Shown one piece after another: positions 36,208-49,439 of a stretch of 64,000 nucleotides of DNA. The notes under the pieces were generated by a model. The model made no database searches, had not been told where the DNA came from, and worked only from the letters and a program-made list of their open reading frames with translations. The stretch is from positions 1,116,001 through 1,180,000 of the forward strand of contig NZ_JAFBCS010000001.1 of the NCBI RefSeq assembly GCF_016907845.1, written 5' to 3'. Every line of letters starts with the position of its first letter. Within the stretch, counting starts at the first letter, position 1. The translations under genes and the position numbers were made by a program. The DNA comes from Arcanobacterium pluranimalium. Lineage in GTDB: Bacteria; Actinomycetota; Actinomycetes; Actinomycetales; Actinomycetaceae.

Positions 36208-37461
36208 ATGCACGTGGGTGAGATGAGGGTGATCCCAGCAAAACTAGTCCGGCCACAGCGGTTGAAGGTTGCGGCCTATGCGCGGGTGTCCACCGAGCAA
36301 GAACGCCAGTTGTCGTCGATCGCCGCCCAAGTCTCGCACTACTCTCATCTGATTCAATCCACTCCTGGTTGGGATTATGTGGGTGTGTTCATCGACGAAG
36401 GCATCACCGGCACCTCCACCAAACATCGCGACGGATTCAATGACCTCATGGACACTGCCCGGGCGGGTGGCATCGATGTGATTTTGACGAAGTCGATCTC
36501 CCGGCTCGCCCGCAACACCGTTGACCTGCTCGGCACTGTGCGTGAACTGAAAGCCCTCGGGGTGGCGGTGCGGTTTGAGCGTGAACAGATCGACACCGCC
36601 ACCGCTGACGGTGAACTCCTGCTCACCCTGTTGGCATCGTTTGCGCAGGAAGAATCCCGATCCATGTCAAAGAACGTCAAATGGGGGATCAGGAAGAAAT
36701 ACGCCGACGGATTCATGCACTCGCGCCAACCCTACGGCTACCAATACGTCGACGGCGACCTAGAAATCATCGAGGCCGAAGCCGAGATCATCAGAAGGAT
36801 ATTTGCGGAGTTCCTGGCGGGCATCTCACCCGAAGCCACAGCCGCCCAGCTGAATGCTGAAGGGATCACGCCCAGGCGCGGAGCCAAGTTTCGTGGGAAG
36901 ACGATCCGTAAATGGCTCGAAAACGAACTCTACACCGGCCGCGTGATTCTGCAAAAGTACTATCGGCCAAAAGTGTCAGAATCGAACTGTCATACCAACA
37001 CTGGCGAGCTGCCACGCTACCTCGTCGAGGAATCCCACCCGGCGATCATCGACCAAGCCACGTTCGATGCCGTCCAAGCCGAGTTTGCCCGGCGCAGACA
37101 TCTTGGACGTGGAGCCACACCCTCAGGTGGAACTACCGGGCTCACATCTCGGATCGAATGCTCTGTCTGTGGCAGGTTCTATCACCGTCGCACCAAGAAA
37201 CGCCGCGCGTCGACATACAAGTTCTGGTGGTGCGAAACCGCCACCAAAGGCAAAGGCAACCCCTGCCGGGCACCACAAATCCGAGAAACCCACCTCACCC
37301 GGATCTGTACCCGCGTGCTCGGCCTCGACGACTGGGACGACGAGCACGCGCTCACGCACCTGACAAAGATCGTCGTTAACCCCGACCGCACACTCACCAT
37401 CCACACCACCAACCGCGAAACACCGGTGACGGTGAGCCTGGACGCGGGGAGCACACGATGA
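36208..37461 (+). CDS. Large serine recombinase 1
   Basis: 417 residues from ATG 36208 (RBS GAAAGGAG). Resolvase catalytic domain: nucleophile Ser in AYARVSTEQE (about residue 28) and later arginines in SISRLARNTVD. A Recombinase domain (RRIFAEFLAGISPEATAAQLNAEGI) and a zinc ribbon (CSVCGRFYHRRTKKR..CETATKGKGNPCRAP) follow. It should cut att sites by a Ser-linked mechanism. It is shorter than recombinase 2 and lacks the long C-terminal coiled coil. The stop overlaps the next start (ATGA). Confidence 0.93.
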   Translation: MHVGEMRVIPAKLVRPQRLKVAAYARVSTEQERQLSSIAAQVSHYSHLIQSTPGWDYVGVFIDEGITGTSTKHRDGFNDLMDTARAGGIDVILTKSISRLARNTVDLLGTVRELKALGVAVRFEREQIDTATADGELLLTLLASFAQEESRSMSKNVKWGIRKKYADGFMHSRQPYGYQYVDGDLEIIEAEAEIIRRIFAEFLAGISPEATAAQLNAEGITPRRGAKFRGKTIRKWLENELYTGRVILQKYYRPKVSESNCHTNTGELPRYLVEESHPAIIDQATFDAVQAEFARRRHLGRGATPSGGTTGLTSRIECSVCGRFYHRRTKKRRASTYKFWWCETATKGKGNPCRAPQIRETHLTRICTRVLGLDDWDDEHALTHLTKIVVNPDRTLTIHTTNRETPVTVSLDAGSTR

Positions 37462-39044
37462 CCACGACGCAGATCAGGCGCAAGCGAGTCACCGCGATCC
37501 CCGCCACGAAAACACCCGGACACAATGCGGCGCCGGGTCTGGCTCGTCGGCGTAGAGTGGCGGCCTACGCTAGGGTCTCCACCGAAGCCGAGGAACAAGC
37601 CTCCTCCTATGCGGCGCAAATCGACTATTACACCCGCCACATTCAATCGCGTAGCGAGTGGGAATTCGCAGGCATGTATGCCGACGAAGGCATCACCGGC
37701 ACCACCACCAGACACCGCGAGGGCTTCAAAAGCATGATCGCTGACGCCCTTGCCGGAAAAATCGATTTGATCCTCACCAAGAGCGTGTCCCGGTTTGCCC
37801 GCAACACCGTCGATACCCTCACCCACGTCCGCCAGCTCAAAGACGCAGGCGTGGAGGTCTACTTCGAAAAAGAAAACATCTGGACCTTGGACTCTAAAGG
37901 CGAACTACTCATCACCATCATGAGTTCACTTGCCCAAGAAGAATCCCGCTCCATTTCTGAGAACGTCACTTGGGGTCACCGGAAACGCTTCGCCGACGGA
38001 AAAATCATGGTTCCCTACGCCTCACTGCTCGGATACAAGAAAGGCGAAGACGGAAACCTTGCCATCGACGAAACTGAGGCTCCGATCGTGCGGCGCATCT
38101 ACGCCCGCTTCCTTCAAGGTGCAACCTCACAAACCATCGCCAAAGAACTCACAGCCGATGGCATTGCCACTCCGCGCGGCAAAACTGTGTGGCCGCCGTC
38201 CACTGTGCGTTCGATCCTGGCCAACGAGAAATACAAAGGCGACGCGCTCCTACAGAAGAGCTTCACCACCGACTTCCTAACCAAAACCATCAAAGTCAAC
38301 GAAGGTGAAGTACCCCAATACTACGTTACCGGAAACCACGAACCCATCATCAACCCCGCCACCTGGGATGCCGTGCAAGCAGAACTCGCACGCCGCCAAG
38401 GCCGTGGCACCTCCAACACCTACCCCTTTGCCAACAAGATCAAATGCTCCGATTGTGGAGGCTGGTTTGGACGGAAAGTCTGGCACTCCACCAGCAAATA
38501 CCGCCGCCACATCTGGCGCTGCAACAACAAATACAACAAGACCCACTGCTGCGCCACGCCCCACGTCACCGAGGAGAAGATCAAGAACGCGTTCGTCGCA
38601 GCTCTGACCGAGCGCGTCACCGACAACAACGCGCTCGATGACACCATGCGTCTGCTTGATGAAACGGTCTACAACACCCGCGAGCTCGAAACTCAGCAGG
38701 CTGAGTTGGGGGAGCGGATCGAAGAAACCATCATGCTGATGAACCAACTCATCACCACCGCAGCATCCACCGCCCATGACCCCGACGACTACGACCGCCG
38801 CTACCACGAGCTCGAAAACCGACACCAGCAACTCGAAAACGAGCACCAGCAGATCACTAGCCAGATCGACGACCGGCGCAACCGCCGAGCCCAAGCCATC
38901 AAAGTCCGCGACTACCTCGTCACCCAGCCACCCCTCGCATACAGCGACCAAGCCTGGAACACCCTCGTCGACCACGCCACCGTCACCGCTGACGGAGTCA
39001 TCACCATTCTCATGAAAGATGAGATCAGTACTAGCAAGGACTGA
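37458..39044 (+). CDS. Large serine recombinase 2
   Basis: 528 residues: catalytic Ser in AYARVSTEAEEQ (about residue 41), LTKSVSRFARNTVDTL, Recombinase domain (RRIYARFLQGATSQTIAKELTADGI), zinc ribbon (CSDCGGWFGRKVW..WRCNNKY..CCATPHV) and a C-terminal coiled coil (about 405-490) that in such enzymes controls synapsis and direction. Both recombinases of the pair keep the nucleophile, so both could be active; they may work as a heteromer or on different sites. Last clear phage gene. Confidence 0.93.
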   Translation: MTTTQIRRKRVTAIPATKTPGHNAAPGLARRRRVAAYARVSTEAEEQASSYAAQIDYYTRHIQSRSEWEFAGMYADEGITGTTTRHREGFKSMIADALAGKIDLILTKSVSRFARNTVDTLTHVRQLKDAGVEVYFEKENIWTLDSKGELLITIMSSLAQEESRSISENVTWGHRKRFADGKIMVPYASLLGYKKGEDGNLAIDETEAPIVRRIYARFLQGATSQTIAKELTADGIATPRGKTVWPPSTVRSILANEKYKGDALLQKSFTTDFLTKTIKVNEGEVPQYYVTGNHEPIINPATWDAVQAELARRQGRGTSNTYPFANKIKCSDCGGWFGRKVWHSTSKYRRHIWRCNNKYNKTHCCATPHVTEEKIKNAFVAALTERVTDNNALDDTMRLLDETVYNTRELETQQAELGERIEETIMLMNQLITTAASTAHDPDDYDRRYHELENRHQQLENEHQQITSQIDDRRNRRAQAIKVRDYLVTQPPLAYSDQAWNTLVDHATVTADGVITILMKDEISTSKD

Positions 39045-41989: not shown

Positions 41990-44344
41990 ATGATGAAAGA
42001 AACTGCGAAACGCTTACACGACCTGCTGGGACTACGAACTTCACCTGGAATCTTTTTCGGATCTGCTTTTGTGGTAATCCTATTTACCGCGCTCATGGCG
42101 ATCTTCCCAGGGCCGATGCAAAAATTCTTTGGGCAGCTCGCCGCCTTTATCCGCTACGATCTCGGCTGGTTTTTCACACTTTCGGTGACGCTCCTGGTGA
42201 TTTTTTCCCTGTTACTAGCCACGTCGCGATACGGTCGTATCAAGATTGGCGACGACGATTCCACCCCTGAGTATTCAGGCGTGGCATGGTTTGGCATGCT
42301 TTTCGCAGCAGGAGTCGGTGCGGTTCTCATGTTCTGGGGTATTGCCGAGCCGATGACTCACTACGCAAAACCGCCGCTTGAGGGCACGACTGCGTTCAGT
42401 GATCGGGCGTTATCAGATGCTATGGCGATTGCGAATTTCCATTTCACTGTGCATATGTGGGCAATTTTCGTGGTTCCAGGCTTGGCGTTTGGATACTTCA
42501 CGTACAAACGCAAGCTTCCGCCGCGCGTTTCCTCGGCCTTTCAGCCGCTCCTCGGCGATGGCATCCATGGCCCCATAGGCAAGATAATCGATATTCTTGC
42601 GATTGTTGCTACCGTGTTTGGCCTGTCGGTGTCGGTAGGTTTTGGTGCGCTACAGATCAATTCGGGCGCAAATTACGTGCTCGGAGTGCCAATCGCGCCG
42701 TGGGTGCAAGCTCTGATTTTGGCTATTATCACTGGTGTAGCGCTTGGGTCTGTGATCGCGGGTATGGACAAAGGCGTCAAGCGCCTGTCGTACATCAATA
42801 TCGTACTGGCCACCATTTTGATGGTCTTTGTGCTGCTCTTTGGCTCCACAATGGGCACGATGCGGGCGATTGTGGAGTCTATCGGTGGATATATTTCGCA
42901 TTTACCCACGATGTCTTTCTTTAACGATTTGGGTGGCAATGGGCAATGGTCTGGCAATTGGACGGTTTTCTACTGGGCATGGACTGTTACCTGGGCGCCT
43001 TTCGTAGGAATGTTTGTGGCCAAGATTTCTAAAGGGCGCACGATTCGAGAGTTTGTGCTGGGCACAATGGGCGTGCCGAGCATCTTCGTGATGATTTGGA
43101 TGGCTATCTACGGCTATAACGCCGTCGTGCAGGATCGTGCTTCAGCTTCTGCTCCCGGCACAGGTGGTGCGCTCGCGAAGACGATTGTTGACGAGGGAAA
43201 CGTTCAAGCAGCGCTGTTCCAGTTTTTGCACGGCTTTCCGTGGTATCAGGCGACGGCGGTGCTCGCGCTCGTCGTCGTGGTGCTGTTCTTTATCACCTCG
43301 ATTGATTCGGGCGCATTAGTGATGGATGCGATGGCGAATGGTCATGAAGATTTGTCGCCACTGAAGCAGCGCGTGTTCTGGGGACTTTCCATCGGTGGCG
43401 TATGCGCCTCGATCCTGCTCACCGCTGGAGAGAATGGTCTCACCGCACTTCAAGAAGTGATTATTGTGGTCGGTTTCCCAGTGGTTCTCATGACGTTCGT
43501 GCAGATGCTGATGGTTATTCAAGCATTGCGGGAAGACGCAGGTGCAGCGAAGCCGATTCGTACCCGCCAGTGGAAGCGCGTTCTTCCTGCTGAAGAGTAT
43601 GCACGACGCGCGGAGGATCCCGATGAGGACATAGAAGGTTTCGTTATTTCCCCTGAGTTCGAGCCGGGCACCGAGCCTGAATTTGAAACTCATACTCCGA
43701 CGACGGCCGCGGTGCTCGAAGCGCAGGCAGGCATGCCTAAACTGCGAATCGCCGTCACTGGAGGTGCAGCAGCCGGAGCTTCGTTGGTTGCTGATGAGTT
43801 TGCAAAGCTGGGCGCGGTAGTCATTGATGCAGATGAAATTTCGCGAAATGTTTTAACGCACGACGAGCAAGTGCAAGATGAAATCGGAACAGTCTTTGGT
43901 GAAGACATTATCTCAGCCAGTGGTGAAGTGGATCGCAGCACACTTGGCCGGATTGTATTTGCGTCACGTGAGGCGCGTTTGCGACTTGAAGAAATCATGC
44001 ACCCGCGCATTATTGAAGAAATCGATCGTATTTCGCGCGAAATCGGCGAAGAAAGTGTTGTGGTGGTGACCGTGCCGCTCCTCGTCGAATCAGGGTTGGC
44101 GAGCCGTTTTGACCAAGTGATTACGGTGTCCGCGCCGGTAGAACGGCGTGTTGAGCGCCTGATGGAGGAGAAGGGACTCTCCCGAGAAGACGCCTGGGCA
44201 CGCCTTGACGCTCGGATTACTGATGAGGAACGCGAAGAGGTGGCAGACCACGTATTGCGTAATGACGACGACATCGACTCTTTGCGCGCTGCTACCCGCG
44301 AGTATTGGGATGAGTTTGTGGCGCCGTCTTTGAGCGAAGCTTGA
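41990..44344 (+). CDS. BCCT-family transporter fused to a P-loop-dead dephospho-CoA kinase domain
   Basis: 784 residues. Residues 1-515 are a betaine/choline/carnitine transporter with about 12 helices and MLFAAGVGAVLMFWGIAEPMTHY (103-125) plus the YYWAWTVTWAPFVGMFVAKISKGRTIREF segment. A ~65-residue acidic linker leads to residues 582-784, which match full-length CoaE: IDADEISRNVL, HPRIIEEI and VPLLVESGLASRFDQVITV are conserved. The P-loop reads GGAAAGASL in place of GGIGSGKST, so the ATP-binding lysine is gone. The domain probably senses or scaffolds rather than phosphorylates. The frame is continuous with no sign of an assembly join. An internal ATG at 43733 has only a weak ribosome site. 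First gene of a three-gene operon; the start is uncertain (ATG 41990 or 41993). Confidence 0.88.
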   Translation: MMKETAKRLHDLLGLRTSPGIFFGSAFVVILFTALMAIFPGPMQKFFGQLAAFIRYDLGWFFTLSVTLLVIFSLLLATSRYGRIKIGDDDSTPEYSGVAWFGMLFAAGVGAVLMFWGIAEPMTHYAKPPLEGTTAFSDRALSDAMAIANFHFTVHMWAIFVVPGLAFGYFTYKRKLPPRVSSAFQPLLGDGIHGPIGKIIDILAIVATVFGLSVSVGFGALQINSGANYVLGVPIAPWVQALILAIITGVALGSVIAGMDKGVKRLSYINIVLATILMVFVLLFGSTMGTMRAIVESIGGYISHLPTMSFFNDLGGNGQWSGNWTVFYWAWTVTWAPFVGMFVAKISKGRTIREFVLGTMGVPSIFVMIWMAIYGYNAVVQDRASASAPGTGGALAKTIVDEGNVQAALFQFLHGFPWYQATAVLALVVVVLFFITSIDSGALVMDAMANGHEDLSPLKQRVFWGLSIGGVCASILLTAGENGLTALQEVIIVVGFPVVLMTFVQMLMVIQALREDAGAAKPIRTRQWKRVLPAEEYARRAEDPDEDIEGFVISPEFEPGTEPEFETHTPTTAAVLEAQAGMPKLRIAVTGGAAAGASLVADEFAKLGAVVIDADEISRNVLTHDEQVQDEIGTVFGEDIISASGEVDRSTLGRIVFASREARLRLEEIMHPRIIEEIDRISREIGEESVVVVTVPLLVESGLASRFDQVITVSAPVERRVERLMEEKGLSREDAWARLDARITDEEREEVADHVLRNDDDIDSLRAATREYWDEFVAPSLSEA

Positions 44345-44443: not shown

Positions 44444-45670
44444 ATGAATACCGAAGCGGTACGCCGCATTTTGCGAGACGTTGAGGCCACTCGCTCGCAG
44501 CGTGAAGACCTCTATAAGTTCTTTCATCAGCATGCAGAGCTGTCGATGCAAGAGGTTATCACCAGCCAGAAAATTGTGGAAGAGCTGGAATCTTACGAGA
44601 TTCCGTATCAGCGTGTAGGCCGTACTGGCGTTGTTGCGGTTATTAAAAATGGCGACGGCGCAGTGGTTGCTTTTCGGGCGGACATCGACGGCTTGCCAAT
44701 TGAGGAAGCTTCAGGAAAAGAATATGCATCGCATGCAGCCCAAGTAGACGAAGTCACAGGTGAGACGGTTAAAACCTCTCATGCCTGTGGGCACGATTTT
44801 CACATCATGAGTTTGCTCGGTGCGCTGCAAGCATTTAATTCCCATCGAAGCGATTGGAATGGTACGCTCATTGGGATTTTCCAACCTGCGGAAGAGATAG
44901 CAGCTGGTGCTCGGGATATGATCGACAATGGCCTGGGCGAAAAGATTCCTCACCCTGATGTGTATCTTGGGCAGCATGTTTTGGCGAATCTGCCCGGTGG
45001 GCATCTGGGTACGAGAGTTGGTTCGGTTTTATCTGCGGCTTTCTCTGTGAAAGTCGAGCTCACTGGCAGGGGATCGCACGGCTCGATGCCCGAACTCAGT
45101 GTGGATACGGTAGTTCTTGCAGCAAATATCGTCACCCGCTTGCAGCAGATTGTTTCGCGTGAGATTGCGGCCGCGCAGTCGGCGGTGCTCACGGTAGGTT
45201 CAATCCATGCGGGCACGAAGTCCAATATTATTCCTCAAACTGCCGAGTTGCTGATCAATACGCGGGCTTTCAATCAAGATGTGGCCAATCATCTCAAAGA
45301 AGCAATTGAACGGGTTGTGAATGCCGAATGCGAAGCTGCGCGTTGCCCTGAACCTGCTCGATTTACGTATTACGATGAGTATCCTTTGACCAGCAATGAC
45401 GCCGAAGTCACTCATCGGGTGCGCGCGGCTTTTGACGAGTATTTTCCGGGCGAAACCCACGATCTGGATCAAGTTCTGGCATCGGAAGATTTCTCGATTA
45501 TTCCGTCAGCCTTGGGAGTTCCTTACACTTTCTGGGGCTTGGGAGGATTTGCTGATCCAGATTCAGCACCGGGTAATCACAACCCAGCATTTGCTCCCGA
45601 TCTTCAGCCGACTTTGGATCGCGGGCTAGAAGCTGTCGTGGTGGCGGCCTCGGCGTGGCTAGTTCCGTAA
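44444..45670 (+). CDS. M20-family amidohydrolase (hippurate hydrolase/IAA-amino-acid hydrolase type)
   Basis: 408 residues, RBS GAGGGAG. M20D architecture: RADIDGLPIEE, the metal motif SHACGHDFH (about residues 108-116), FQPAEEIAAGA, LGQHVLANLPGGHLGTRVG, and a dimerisation/lid domain in the middle (FSVKVELTGRGSHGSMPELSVD). Metal-binding and catalytic residues look intact. Relatives cleave N-acyl-amino acids or amide conjugates in the cytoplasm. It lies 99 bp after the BCCT fusion gene and 50 bp before the DUF7916 gene, so it may hydrolyse the compound the transporter imports. Substrate unknown. Confidence 0.88.
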   Translation: MNTEAVRRILRDVEATRSQREDLYKFFHQHAELSMQEVITSQKIVEELESYEIPYQRVGRTGVVAVIKNGDGAVVAFRADIDGLPIEEASGKEYASHAAQVDEVTGETVKTSHACGHDFHIMSLLGALQAFNSHRSDWNGTLIGIFQPAEEIAAGARDMIDNGLGEKIPHPDVYLGQHVLANLPGGHLGTRVGSVLSAAFSVKVELTGRGSHGSMPELSVDTVVLAANIVTRLQQIVSREIAAAQSAVLTVGSIHAGTKSNIIPQTAELLINTRAFNQDVANHLKEAIERVVNAECEAARCPEPARFTYYDEYPLTSNDAEVTHRVRAAFDEYFPGETHDLDQVLASEDFSIIPSALGVPYTFWGLGGFADPDSAPGNHNPAFAPDLQPTLDRGLEAVVVAASAWLVP

Positions 45671-45720
45671 ACTATAAACTGTTCACGGTATCTTGCTCAC
45701 CACAAGAGAGAGGTTTTCTC

Positions 45721-46617
45721 ATGGTTACTCGGCTTATTAGTGCAAATTCTTCGGAAATCTTGCGAATGAATGCTCAGCAGCTCAAGCAGAGCATCAAGGC
45801 TTCTGAAGGGCGTGTGGTGTTATCGGAAAACATCGTGGTGCATCAGCCGAGCCTGCCCGATATTACTAATGCGGAAATTGCGCATGCTTTCGGTGCGGAT
45901 TTGATTCTGTTGAATCTCGTGGATGTGTTTGCGCCGCAGATTCAGGGTATTAGCGATCAAGCAAATTTTGTGCAGGAAATGCATAAGCTCGTGGGCTGTC
46001 CGATTGGTGTCAATCTTGAACCAATTGATGAGGGCGCGGCCATGTTGGAAGAACGCACCGTGATTGCGCAGGGGCGCAGAGCGAGTGTGCAGACTTTGCA
46101 ACGTTTGGAACAACTCGGTGCTGATTTCGTGTGTTTTACAGGTAATCCGGGAAGCGGAGTGTCTAATACGGCGATTATCAGCGCTGCAAAAATCGCGAAA
46201 GAGCATTTCAGTGGTCTTATCATTGCTGGCAAGATGCACGGTGCAGGTGTGGACGAGCCGGTGATTGATGCTCCGACCGTGCAAGCATTGGTCGACGTCG
46301 GTACAGACGTTATTCTCGTACCTGCCGTTGGCACTGTGCCTGGCTTTACCGACGCCGAATTGCGCGACGCCGTTCGGGCGGCACACAGCGCGGGCGCACT
46401 CGTGATGTCCACGATGGGCACGAGCCAAGAGAGCTCCCAGCCTGAAGTCATCATTGATATTGCTCTTCGCAACAAGATTTGCGGAGTCGATATTCAGCAT
46501 ATTGGCGACTCTGGCTATGGTGGTTTAGCCCCGGTTGAAAATATCTTTGCACTCAGTAAAGCAATTCGCGGGCAACGGCATACGGTTTCGCGAATGGCGC
46601 GTTCGATTAATCGCTGA
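45721..46617 (+). CDS. DUF7916-type TIM-barrel protein
   Basis: 298 residues from ATG 45721, preceded by AGAGAGAGG; the earlier frame overlaps the amidohydrolase. It opens LISANSSEILRMNAQQLKQSIKASEGRVVLSE and has alternating beta-alpha units (ADLILLNLVDVF, GCPIGVNLEP, GADFVCFTGNPGSGVSN, GLIIAGKMHGAG, DVILVPAVGTVPGF), as in (beta/alpha)8 barrels of the PEP-mutase or HisA/TrpA style. I recognise the family as DUF7916, often mislabelled haloacid dehalogenase-like. GNPGSGVSN may bind phosphate. It ends the BCCT operon at a strong hairpin. Role unknown. Confidence 0.75.
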   Translation: MVTRLISANSSEILRMNAQQLKQSIKASEGRVVLSENIVVHQPSLPDITNAEIAHAFGADLILLNLVDVFAPQIQGISDQANFVQEMHKLVGCPIGVNLEPIDEGAAMLEERTVIAQGRRASVQTLQRLEQLGADFVCFTGNPGSGVSNTAIISAAKIAKEHFSGLIIAGKMHGAGVDEPVIDAPTVQALVDVGTDVILVPAVGTVPGFTDAELRDAVRAAHSAGALVMSTMGTSQESSQPEVIIDIALRNKICGVDIQHIGDSGYGGLAPVENIFALSKAIRGQRHTVSRMARSINR

Positions 46618-47867: not shown

Positions 47868-49439
47868 TTACTTGACCTGGTTCTCGACCCAAGGGTTGAG
47901 AGTGGTCCCTTTGAGGACGATCTCGCGATGAGGTACGAGTGGAAGATCCTTTTGGTTGATGATCGTCCACCACGGATCCCAGGCTAGCCCGGTGCCTTCA
48001 CCTGCGATGACTCTGATGTTCCGTGCATTTGCCGGAAGTTGAATAGTCTCGCGGAATCCGGCAGTTCGGGCTTTCCAGTTTCCACTCCACTTCATTGGCT
48101 TGCGGATTTCATTGCCTTTGGAATCAAAGCTGATCTCATCCCAGGTCACATCGATCTTGGCAACGTATCCGCCAGCGTGACGGAGAGTGATTGACCCTGA
48201 CGTGTACGTGGTTGCGGTAGTTTCGATGTAATCTCCACTGTTCTGGATGCTCGCCTGCTGATTGTCCTTAAGGAAGTTCACCGCGTAGGACACTGGCACA
48301 GCTGGCACCTTGGTTGAGAAGGTGCTCTCTTCTTTAATGATCCGTTTGAGATCGGCGATAGAACCGGTGACTACTTCGACGCCGCTCTTAGCGCTCCCGC
48401 CAAGGACGTAAACAGTGGCGCGCGTATTCTTCAAAATATTTGCATACTTTGTATCCACATCGGTTTTCACATTGCCGAAGCTGGCTTTGAATACGCCGCT
48501 GAACGCTGCTTTAACATCGTTGGAGGTGGAGTTGGTTTCGAGCTTGACGAAAATTTGCCTACCGTAGCTCACGCTGGAGACGTAGCCAAGAGGATTCTTG
48601 TTGTTGACTCCGCGTGCAATCAGATCTTCAGTAGTGACGTTCGGGGCAAATACGCTGTGCGGATTTGTCGGGGTGTCCATTGCCACTGTGTAGTAGATCT
48701 GCTTGAACGAAGCAATAGCTACTTGGCGTTCGTGCTTGTGGATAGCTTCGAAGTTCACGTTGAGTTTAGCTGCGATCTTCTCAAACCCAAGTCCGAACTT
48801 TGCCTTTAGCTGCTCTTTGGAGTTAACCATAGACTCGTCGTATGAAATCTTGGCTGCGTGCTCGGGGTACTTGTCATGGCGATCCGTCCACCGTTGTAGG
48901 AGATCGTTAACTCCTTGGTCAACGGTGCTCTTCGAAGGATTTGGTACGGTCACGCGGTTGGTGCCGTGCGTCAATCCTGGTAGATCAACACTGATAACTT
49001 CTGGAGCACGATCGATTCCCACTGGGATTGGACTTCCCTTAGCGAGATTCTGATTGGCGAACACTAGTGCACCGGGGAAGATCGTGGCGTTATTGGCTTC
49101 GAGCGCTGCAATATCTGCACGCAGATTATTGAAGCTCTTACGTTCGTGCTTAAATACGGTGTAAGTTCCGTCTTTGAATTGATCACGAGTTACGGGAACG
49201 GTCTTGATGGGTTCGCCTTCTACGGCAAGTACTCCGCGAGGATCGTAATTGAGGCCGCGTACGTACTGATCAATTGTGTTTTGAGTCAGCATTGTTGGAG
49301 CCATCGATACGATAAGACCGGAGGTCATCGGAGTGAATATGCCGTTCTTTCCTAAGGATTCGGCGAATGATGTTGTAGGCAGCATGACAGTTGCCAAGAC
49401 TGCACCACCAGCTACTGTTGCAAATATTTTCCTTTTCAT
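47868..49439 (-). CDS. Cholesterol-dependent cytolysin (pyolysin-like pore-forming toxin)
   Basis: 523 residues with a Sec signal peptide (MKRKIFATVAGGAVLATVMLPTTSFA). The body matches the thiol-activated cytolysin family: domains 1-3 with two transmembrane-hairpin regions, and a C-terminal domain 4. The undecapeptide is EGTGLAWDPWW (residues 481-491, bases 47967-47999): Gly482 replaces the usual cysteine, and Asp-Pro replaces Glu-Trp, as in pyolysin-type toxins, so it should be active without thiol reduction. The cholesterol-recognition Thr513-Leu514 pair (KGTTLNP) is kept. Secreted monomers bind cholesterol and form large pores in host membranes. Monocistronic, with its own terminator and a CRP/GlxR-like palindrome upstream. 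Confidence 0.96.
   Translation of the reverse strand: MKRKIFATVAGGAVLATVMLPTTSFAESLGKNGIFTPMTSGLIVSMAPTMLTQNTIDQYVRGLNYDPRGVLAVEGEPIKTVPVTRDQFKDGTYTVFKHERKSFNNLRADIAALEANNATIFPGALVFANQNLAKGSPIPVGIDRAPEVISVDLPGLTHGTNRVTVPNPSKSTVDQGVNDLLQRWTDRHDKYPEHAAKISYDESMVNSKEQLKAKFGLGFEKIAAKLNVNFEAIHKHERQVAIASFKQIYYTVAMDTPTNPHSVFAPNVTTEDLIARGVNNKNPLGYVSSVSYGRQIFVKLETNSTSNDVKAAFSGVFKASFGNVKTDVDTKYANILKNTRATVYVLGGSAKSGVEVVTGSIADLKRIIKEESTFSTKVPAVPVSYAVNFLKDNQQASIQNSGDYIETTATTYTSGSITLRHAGGYVAKIDVTWDEISFDSKGNEIRKPMKWSGNWKARTAGFRETIQLPANARNIRVIAGEGTGLAWDPWWTIINQKDLPLVPHREIVLKGTTLNPWVENQVK

Follow-up and report, generated by a model that had tools for sequence, protein, structure and literature searches.

A BCCT transporter carrying an altered dephospho-CoA kinase domain in Arcanobacterium pluranimalium and other actinobacteria: a candidate nucleotide-binding regulatory module

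The DNA analysed here, called the window throughout, is a stretch of 64,000 nucleotides from Arcanobacterium pluranimalium (contig NZ_JAFBCS010000001.1, positions 1,116,001 to 1,180,000). It contains a gene in which a complete transporter of the BCCT family is joined in one reading frame to a full-length domain of dephospho-coenzyme A (CoA) kinase, CoaE. The gene and its parts are as follows (window coordinates, all on the + strand).

41990..44344, +, BCCT-CoaE fusion gene, stop-free frame of 784 amino acids (783 amino acids from the second ATG)
42050..43537, +, BCCT transporter domain, residues 21-516 (PF02028, TIGR00842; model match to TmaT/BetP, TMt up to 0.95)
42437..42469, +, substrate-box segment FHFTVHMWAIF of transmembrane segment TM4, residues 150-160, with F152, W157 and F160 (alignment to BetP 3p03)
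42968..43003, +, TM8 segment FYWAWTVTWAPF, residues 327-338, with T332 where BetP has W
43538..43732, +, linker, residues 517-581, RTRQWKRVLPAEEY...GTEPEFETHTPTT
43733..44341, +, CoaE domain, residues 582-784 (PF01121 over 587-762, TIGR00152, predicted local distance difference test, pLDDT)
43760..43786, +, P-loop GGAAAGASL, residues 591-599, with A597 in the place of the lysine (aligned to 6n39)
43826..43846, +, DADEISR, residues 613-619, containing D615, equivalent to D32 of Mycobacterium tuberculosis CoaE (6n39 alignment)
44000..44011, +, HPRI, residues 671-674 (motif table)
44075..44092, +, PLLVES, residues 696-701, with L697 equivalent to M. tuberculosis L114 (motif table, 6n39 alignment)
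44156..44158, +, R723, equivalent to R140 of M. tuberculosis CoaE, Arg in 81/81 fused rows
44195..44197, +, W736, signature of the fused domain (81/81 fused rows versus 0/22 single CoaEs)

Both parts of the protein were recognised by their family models. The transporter matched PF02028 over its whole length and with a wide margin over the cut-off (544.5 bits, E 2.4e-163, profile positions 1-485 of 485) and reached 481.2 bits with TIGR00842 (cut-off 407.55). The CoaE part matched PF01121 far above the cut-off (165 bits, E 1.8e-48) and TIGR00152 with 130.2 bits (cut-off 65.55). With PRK03333 it scored 181.7, below the cut-off of 215; the native CoaE of the same genome was also below it (208.4). 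An AlphaFold2 model calculated with 38 fused sequences had a mean pLDDT of 80.9 and a predicted template modelling score of 0.65, and the pLDDT of residues 581-780 was 76-94 per block. With a pLDDT below 50 for linker residues 562-574, the model leaves the position of the CoaE domain relative to the membrane part unpredicted. On sequence comparison, the linker begins with an old BCCT tail, which also occurs in unfused BCCTs of Rothia and Kocuria palustris. A scan for promoters and terminators gave no signal above shuffled sequences.

A preliminary description made from the sequence alone had reported one 784-codon frame joining a complete BCCT transporter to a full-length CoaE, and this was confirmed by the frame, the Pfam matches and the conservation across genera. 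The motifs DAD (613-615), HPRI (671-674) and PLLVESGL and the P-loop GGAAAGASL were also present as described there. Regarding the P-loop, the loss of the lysine (A597) stands, but instead of the two glycines said to be missing only one is lost relative to GGIGSGKST. The fourth P-loop position is already alanine in many ordinary CoaEs, including the genome's own GGIAAGKSH. The window domain does not fit the pattern G-x-x-x-x-G-K-S/T. Judged by the alignment, its telling losses are the lysine and Q742, a position occupied by Gln in 22/22 single CoaEs and by Arg in the window.

The full frame was found in three of 59 related genomes, all of the same genus: that of the window, A. bovis (95% identity) and A. 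ihumii (71%). No such full-frame match was present in the other seven of the ten genomes of the genus. Two separate genes in relatives, joined here by an assembly error, had been named in advance as the finding that would overturn the description; A. bovis and A. ihumii carry the single fused frame. The search for BCCT plus CoaE architectures, likewise proposed there, yielded 62 database clusters. They came from three protein searches (8 + 30 + 24 new clusters), each scoring about 7994 candidates; two of the 30 clusters of the second search are short or partial. When 396 genomes of the order were searched with the linker plus the CoaE domain, at least six matches started in the first 7 query residues, in frames of 785-846 amino acids; two of the six belong to the genus g58 and one to Micrococcus. 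The genome scan for relatives comprised at least 80 loci. The fusion was detected in 11/11 Micrococcus genomes searched, in 2/2 genomes of the genus g58, in several Kocuria species and in Luteococcus. In two Micrococcus genomes (loci L161 and L162) two fused genes stand in tandem, followed by one intact coaE, and at another Micrococcus locus (L163) a fused BCCT accompanies an unfused one. A draft contig of K. atrinae (L005:3956-6966) contains the fusion in broken frames, which may be sequencing errors. That such a fusion is not known to have been described agrees with our result: no description was found in the literature searched, most subscription papers being outside its reach.

Most named database entries for the fused transporters, from M. 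luteus, Kocuria, Arcanobacterium and Luteococcus, are called 'dephospho-CoA kinase'. Among them is the M. luteus cluster P0058, which represents 565 sequences. Exceptions are one M. lylae entry named for the transport part and one Kocuria entry named 'hypothetical protein'. This naming is likely a source of wrong annotation: automatic annotation hides a transporter in M. luteus, a common laboratory species.

The origin of the fusion was examined with trees of both parts. After removal of near-duplicates, the fused CoaE domains fell on one side of a branch separating them from single CoaEs (49 versus 47 rows), with a support of 96 in the Shimodaira-Hasegawa-like approximate likelihood ratio test (SH-aLRT). 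In a careful tree with 13 more rows removed (42 fused, 41 single) the fused side was supported with 99/94 and by 98% of 200 bootstrap trees. The fused transporters also formed one group (34 rows, SH-aLRT 99) in a tree that took in only part of the locus rows. Their nearest neighbours were unfused transporters from K. palustris together with a single Micrococcus copy (98), and next came those of Rothia (100). A single ancient fusion is likely, because the fused CoaE domains and the fused transporters each form one group. Independent fusion in each genus was considered and is disfavoured by these trees.

In Rothia, coaE lies directly upstream of the related unfused BCCT gene in 5/5 loci. An intact single coaE follows the fusion directly on the same strand in 15/15 fusion loci (2 Kocuria, 2 g58, 11 Micrococcus). 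The fusion probably took place at the coaE locus in Micrococcaceae with coaE duplicated, since the unfused relatives of this BCCT adjoin coaE there; this is the simplest reading. Arcanobacterium and Luteococcus would have received the gene by later transfer, a direction suggested by the nesting of the trees. The content of guanine and cytosine (GC) of the gene is unremarkable, so the case for transfer into Arcanobacterium is made by the trees and by the patchy presence in 3/10 genomes of the genus.

The active-site motifs were compared between 81 fused rows and 22 single CoaEs. The fused rows are redundant, with about 14 Kocuria proteins as near-copies and several protein-locus duplicates. The motif table excludes P0047 (partial) and P0059, P0076 and P0077 (without BCCT); one piece of the broken K. 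atrinae frame served as a row there and in the first CoaE tree. In all 22 single CoaEs the lysine of the P-loop, the two aspartates of DAD and the histidine and proline of HP are retained. Among the fused rows, position 597 is K in 47, R in 23, A in 6 and T in 5; D615 is found in 53/81, His 671 in 19/81 and Pro 672 in 81/81.

By comparison of these rows, the motifs are altered by different routes in different fused clades. The clade of Arcanobacterium and Luteococcus (11 rows, including P0003, P0004 and P0007) is without Lys597 (A 6, T 5) and has Arg in place of Gln 742, with D615, H671 and P696-L697-L698 kept in 11/11. The 29 Kocuria rows have K (28) or R (1) at position 597, D615 in four, and H671 and P696 in none. 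For Micrococcus and g58 (33 rows) position 597 is K in 17 and R in 16; Glu replaces D613 in 24, D615 is present in 30, and H671 and P696 are again absent from all. His 671 and Pro 696 are thus lost in 62/62 rows of Kocuria and Micrococcus/g58. A further group, P0070-P0075 (6 rows), has R597, has lost D613 and keeps H671 in all six. The metagenomic fusions P0048 and P0049 retain every tabulated motif.

Several residues are invariant in the fused rows, among others G591, G596, R665, P672, G686, R723, A735, W736 and N758; R723 and N758 occur in 81/81. The distinction by W736 also holds in less redundant sets (49/49 fused versus 0/46 single). It belongs to the helix that follows the lid arginine (732-740 in the model). 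Since P0048 and P0049 also have W736, this residue probably arose before catalytic motifs were lost. Across the fused family, catalytic residues are lost with the fold kept, as in pseudoenzymes; the fold was modelled for the window protein only.

The preliminary description went further and called the domain catalytically dead. This was an inference from the P-loop, and it is not upheld by the mutational data for M. tuberculosis CoaE. In that study (PMC3019153), K14A brought kcat down by 19% and kcat/Km by a factor of about two; some secondary structure was lost as well. R140A gave no reaction, D32A had 5% efficiency as given in the text, and L114A was mild (PMC3019153). With an offset of 8, fixed by the P-loop numbering of the same source, the window counterparts of K14, R140, D32 and L114 in the 6n39 alignment are A597, R723, D615 and L697. 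Both positions with severe effects, D32 and R140, are kept as D615 and R723. Kinase activity of the window domain is therefore possible; the loss of Q742 speaks for the other side. By this alignment the domain seems altered rather than dead. It shares with CoaE (PF01121, TIGR00152) the whole domain, DAD, HPRI, PLLVES, R723 and N758. It differs in the absence of the P-loop lysine and Q742, in W736, in being tied to a transporter and in not being the only coaE of the genome.

The genome was checked for a separate intact coaE, as had been proposed, and one is present. In the host genome (2,095,799 bases, single contig) the second CoaE match lies 262 kb from the fusion (C1:1422099) and has the intact P-loop GGIAAGKSH. 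This native coaE (contig 1422054-1422971) sits between genes common to relatives, which from their sequence we take to be rpsA and uvrB. It has PLLKGS instead of PLLVE, together with DYD; the P-loop Lys and HP are retained. PLL[KR]GS in the native CoaE is common to A. bovis and A. ihumii. The native window CoaE stands on a very long branch of the CoaE tree (1.59). In A. bovis and A. ihumii the ordinary coaE was found on contigs other than that of the fusion.

For the window and A. bovis, the ratio of nonsynonymous to synonymous substitution rates (dN/dS) was 0.033 for the BCCT part, 0.021 for the linker and 0.076 for the CoaE part by NG86. The corresponding YN00 values were 0.048, 0.082 and 0.199. 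Six Micrococcus pairs had NG86 ratios of 0.18-0.54 for the fused CoaE, 0.13-0.26 for the neighbouring single coaE and 0.11-0.42 for the BCCT. NG86 was saturated for the window against A. ihumii, and YN00 values are at hand for the window against A. bovis and a few other pairs. In all pairs with a computable value dN/dS was below 1. Purifying selection acts on the fused CoaE domain, though less strictly than on a working CoaE.

The transporter part has TmaT, BetT and BetP as its best solved relatives, with TmaT 8zxk on top (TMt 0.95). The 50 of 1124 Foldseek matches that were inspected were all BCCT chains. In the alignment to BetP 3p03 the window has F152, W157, F160 and T332 where BetP has W, W, Y and W. 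We take these BetP residues, presumably 189, 194, 197 and 374, to form the betaine box. T332 occurs in 26/26 fused rows (query included) and in 59/107 locus rows, which include two fused loci; the locus rows sharing it are actinobacterial and proteobacterial. The full box W, W, Y, W was detected in 43/107 locus rows. The betaine-type BCCT profile NF047988 gave 476.5 bits, below its cut-off of 650. Transport of osmolytes or carnitine, assumed in the preliminary description, is therefore unproven, as three of the four box positions differ from BetP. It was not adopted here, in view of the altered box, the profile score and the frequency of T332 among the locus rows.

Our reading is that the fused CoaE domain serves as a nucleotide-binding regulatory module tuning transport, rather than as the CoA kinase of the cell; from the sequence evidence we give this a probability of about one half. 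That the domain was repurposed for regulation had already been suggested, and the suggestion draws support from the fusion itself, from the separate coaE and from the change of motifs with the domain kept. What is not supported is a sensor of CoA or dephospho-CoA common to all fusions. This candidate was lowered because His 671 and Pro 696, on the acceptor side, are lost in all Kocuria and Micrococcus/g58 rows. The nucleotide side may be the part of the site still in use, because R723 and N758 are invariant.

The following course of events would agree with these findings. A BCCT gene joined the neighbouring coaE in Micrococcaceae, and the fused copy would at first have been an intact kinase. 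With a dedicated coaE carrying on CoA synthesis, catalysis in the fused copy would have been free to decay. The fold, the nucleotide-side arginine and the docking surface would have been kept during this decay.

How such a domain could act is suggested by the two parent families. BetP, the most thoroughly studied BCCT, is a trimer regulated through its cytoplasmic C-terminal domain, and its response to osmotic stress requires the trimer and the terminal domains (PMC6400524, PMC10710835). For M. tuberculosis CoaE, PMC3123319 describes an equilibrium between an inactive trimer and an active monomer, with dephospho-CoA shifting it to the monomer and CTP keeping the protein trimeric. By analogy, three CoaE-like domains under one transporter trimer might clamp together or part with a ligand, and the state of this clamp might decide whether the transporter is restrained or active. 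W736 in the lid would be a likely docking residue. The ligand would most likely be an adenine or cytidine nucleotide; in the clade of the window, with D615, HP and PLL kept, binding of dephospho-CoA or CoA might also be possible. Such a ligand-gated clamp, by which a nucleotide or CoA precursor would directly set the uptake rate, is offered tentatively, and we consider it less certain than a regulatory nucleotide-binding role as such.

Several points weigh against these proposals. No functional data were found for any fused member, and the clamp would combine analogies from two separate families. The CoaE part had no separate match among the 50 of 1124 Foldseek matches. Lys or Arg is present at the P-loop in 70/81 rows and D615 in 53/81, so 'decay' is partial. 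The ligand-site motifs common to all fusions are only two P-loop glycines, R723 and N758; with so few, one shared ligand is uncertain. K14A of M. tuberculosis CoaE stays active, which leaves the window domain a possible kinase; TIGR00152 gives the fused domain 130.2 bits and the native CoaE 129.0. That the fused domain of the six Micrococcus pairs evolves faster than the adjacent coaE also fits slow loss.

Three other functions, or the lack of one, have to be weighed against a regulatory module. The fused domain could still act as a dephospho-CoA kinase, anchored to the membrane and serving as a second CoaE tied in its activity to the transporter. The kept D615 and R723, a lost lysine that costs only 19% of kcat in the M. 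tuberculosis data available, a TIGR00152 score above the cut-off and the complete motifs of P0048 and P0049 would agree with this. We nevertheless regard it as unlikely. Activity can hardly maintain the fusion everywhere when all 62 Kocuria and Micrococcus/g58 rows have lost the HP histidine and the PLL proline, the window is without Q742 as well, and an ordinary coaE is available in the window genome and beside the fusion in the 15 Kocuria, g58 and Micrococcus loci. The same neighbouring coaE suggests a second possibility: a pseudo-subunit that binds the true CoaE from next door, recruits or restrains it and thereby links the transporter with CoA synthesis. Mixed trimers are conceivable from the trimers of M. 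tuberculosis CoaE (PMC3123319). This is doubtful to a higher degree, since coaE is 262 kb away in the window genome and on other contigs in A. bovis and A. ihumii, and the long branch of the native window CoaE speaks against a conserved interface.

Lower still we place a mere passenger of an accidental fusion, kept only because its removal disturbs the C-terminus of the transporter, and drifting to loss. Changes of different motifs in different clades and the faster evolution compared with the neighbouring coaE in the Micrococcus pairs would be expected then. Close BCCTs without the domain do exist in K. palustris and as one Micrococcus copy, though outside the fused group in the tree. A passenger is hard to reconcile with the full length being kept, with W736 in every fused row and absent from the singles compared, with dN/dS below 1 in all computable pairs, and with a fusion that occurs in each of the 11 Micrococcus genomes and is found as one unit in Arcanobacterium and Luteococcus as well. 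An error of sequencing or assembly that joined two genes into this frame is practically excluded. Such an artefact finds no support in the window, only one K. atrinae draft contig has broken frames, and it was rejected because the same frame occurs in independent genomes of several genera. The regulatory module remains the reading we prefer.

In the surroundings of the fusion, an M20 amidohydrolase gene (TIGR01891, window 44444-45670, +) begins about 100 bases 3' of it, followed by a gene for a DUF7916 protein (45655-46617, +). The window and A. bovis have both genes at this place; A. ihumii has neither there. The pair was not used to guess a substrate, because it is missing after the A. ihumii fusion. 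About 3 kb upstream lies a large serine recombinase (Resolvase, Recombinase and zinc ribbon; 37458-39044, +). The A. bovis stretch examined contains no relative of it. GC is higher around the recombinase, a region that is possibly the end of an integrated element. A 523-amino-acid protein (47868-49439, -), from its sequence presumably a cholesterol-dependent cytolysin, has part of a relative near the fusion in the A. bovis stretch.

If the regulatory reading is true, these proteins would represent a previously undescribed class of transporter control, found in several actinobacterial genera including M. luteus. They would also hint that solute uptake is linked to the CoA or nucleotide state, and the path from enzyme to sensor could still be followed, step by step, in living intermediates. 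The natural series runs from the intact P0048 and P0049 over the altered forms of Kocuria and Micrococcus to the lysine-less ones of Arcanobacterium and Luteococcus.

Other CoaE fusions likewise join CoaE to another domain, for instance the bifunctional coenzyme A synthase 2f6r, the Sua5-type P0010 and the S1-type P0011, but none of them contains a membrane transporter. Further CoaE fusions in the protein database (P0010, P0011, P0013, P0059, P0077) carry PF01300, PF00575, PF00884 and PF13344, among others. We take these to be Sua5/YrdC, S1 RNA-binding, sulfatase and hydrolase domains; a CoaE with a tail presumably of the GrpB type is another case. Among transporters, those of the SSS family with kinase domains are reportedly further examples with fused domains. 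BetP shares with the fusion the BCCT fold over window residues 26-516, but ends in a tail without an enzyme-like domain and has the betaine box W, W, Y, W. Its trimer with a regulatory C-terminal domain is likened to the fusion on the available sources, a trimer of the window protein being proposed by analogy only. Known fused regulatory domains of transporters, as named in the accessible part of PMC10710835, are CBS, UspA and the C2 domain of MetNI. As in the fusion, these are extra cytoplasmic domains, usually C-terminal, which may bind a small ligand. The fused regulators named there are ligand-binding modules such as CBS and UspA (PMC10710835), whereas here an essential metabolic enzyme appears to have been attached, once: the domain comes from cofactor biosynthesis, and its active-site motifs have changed within the group.

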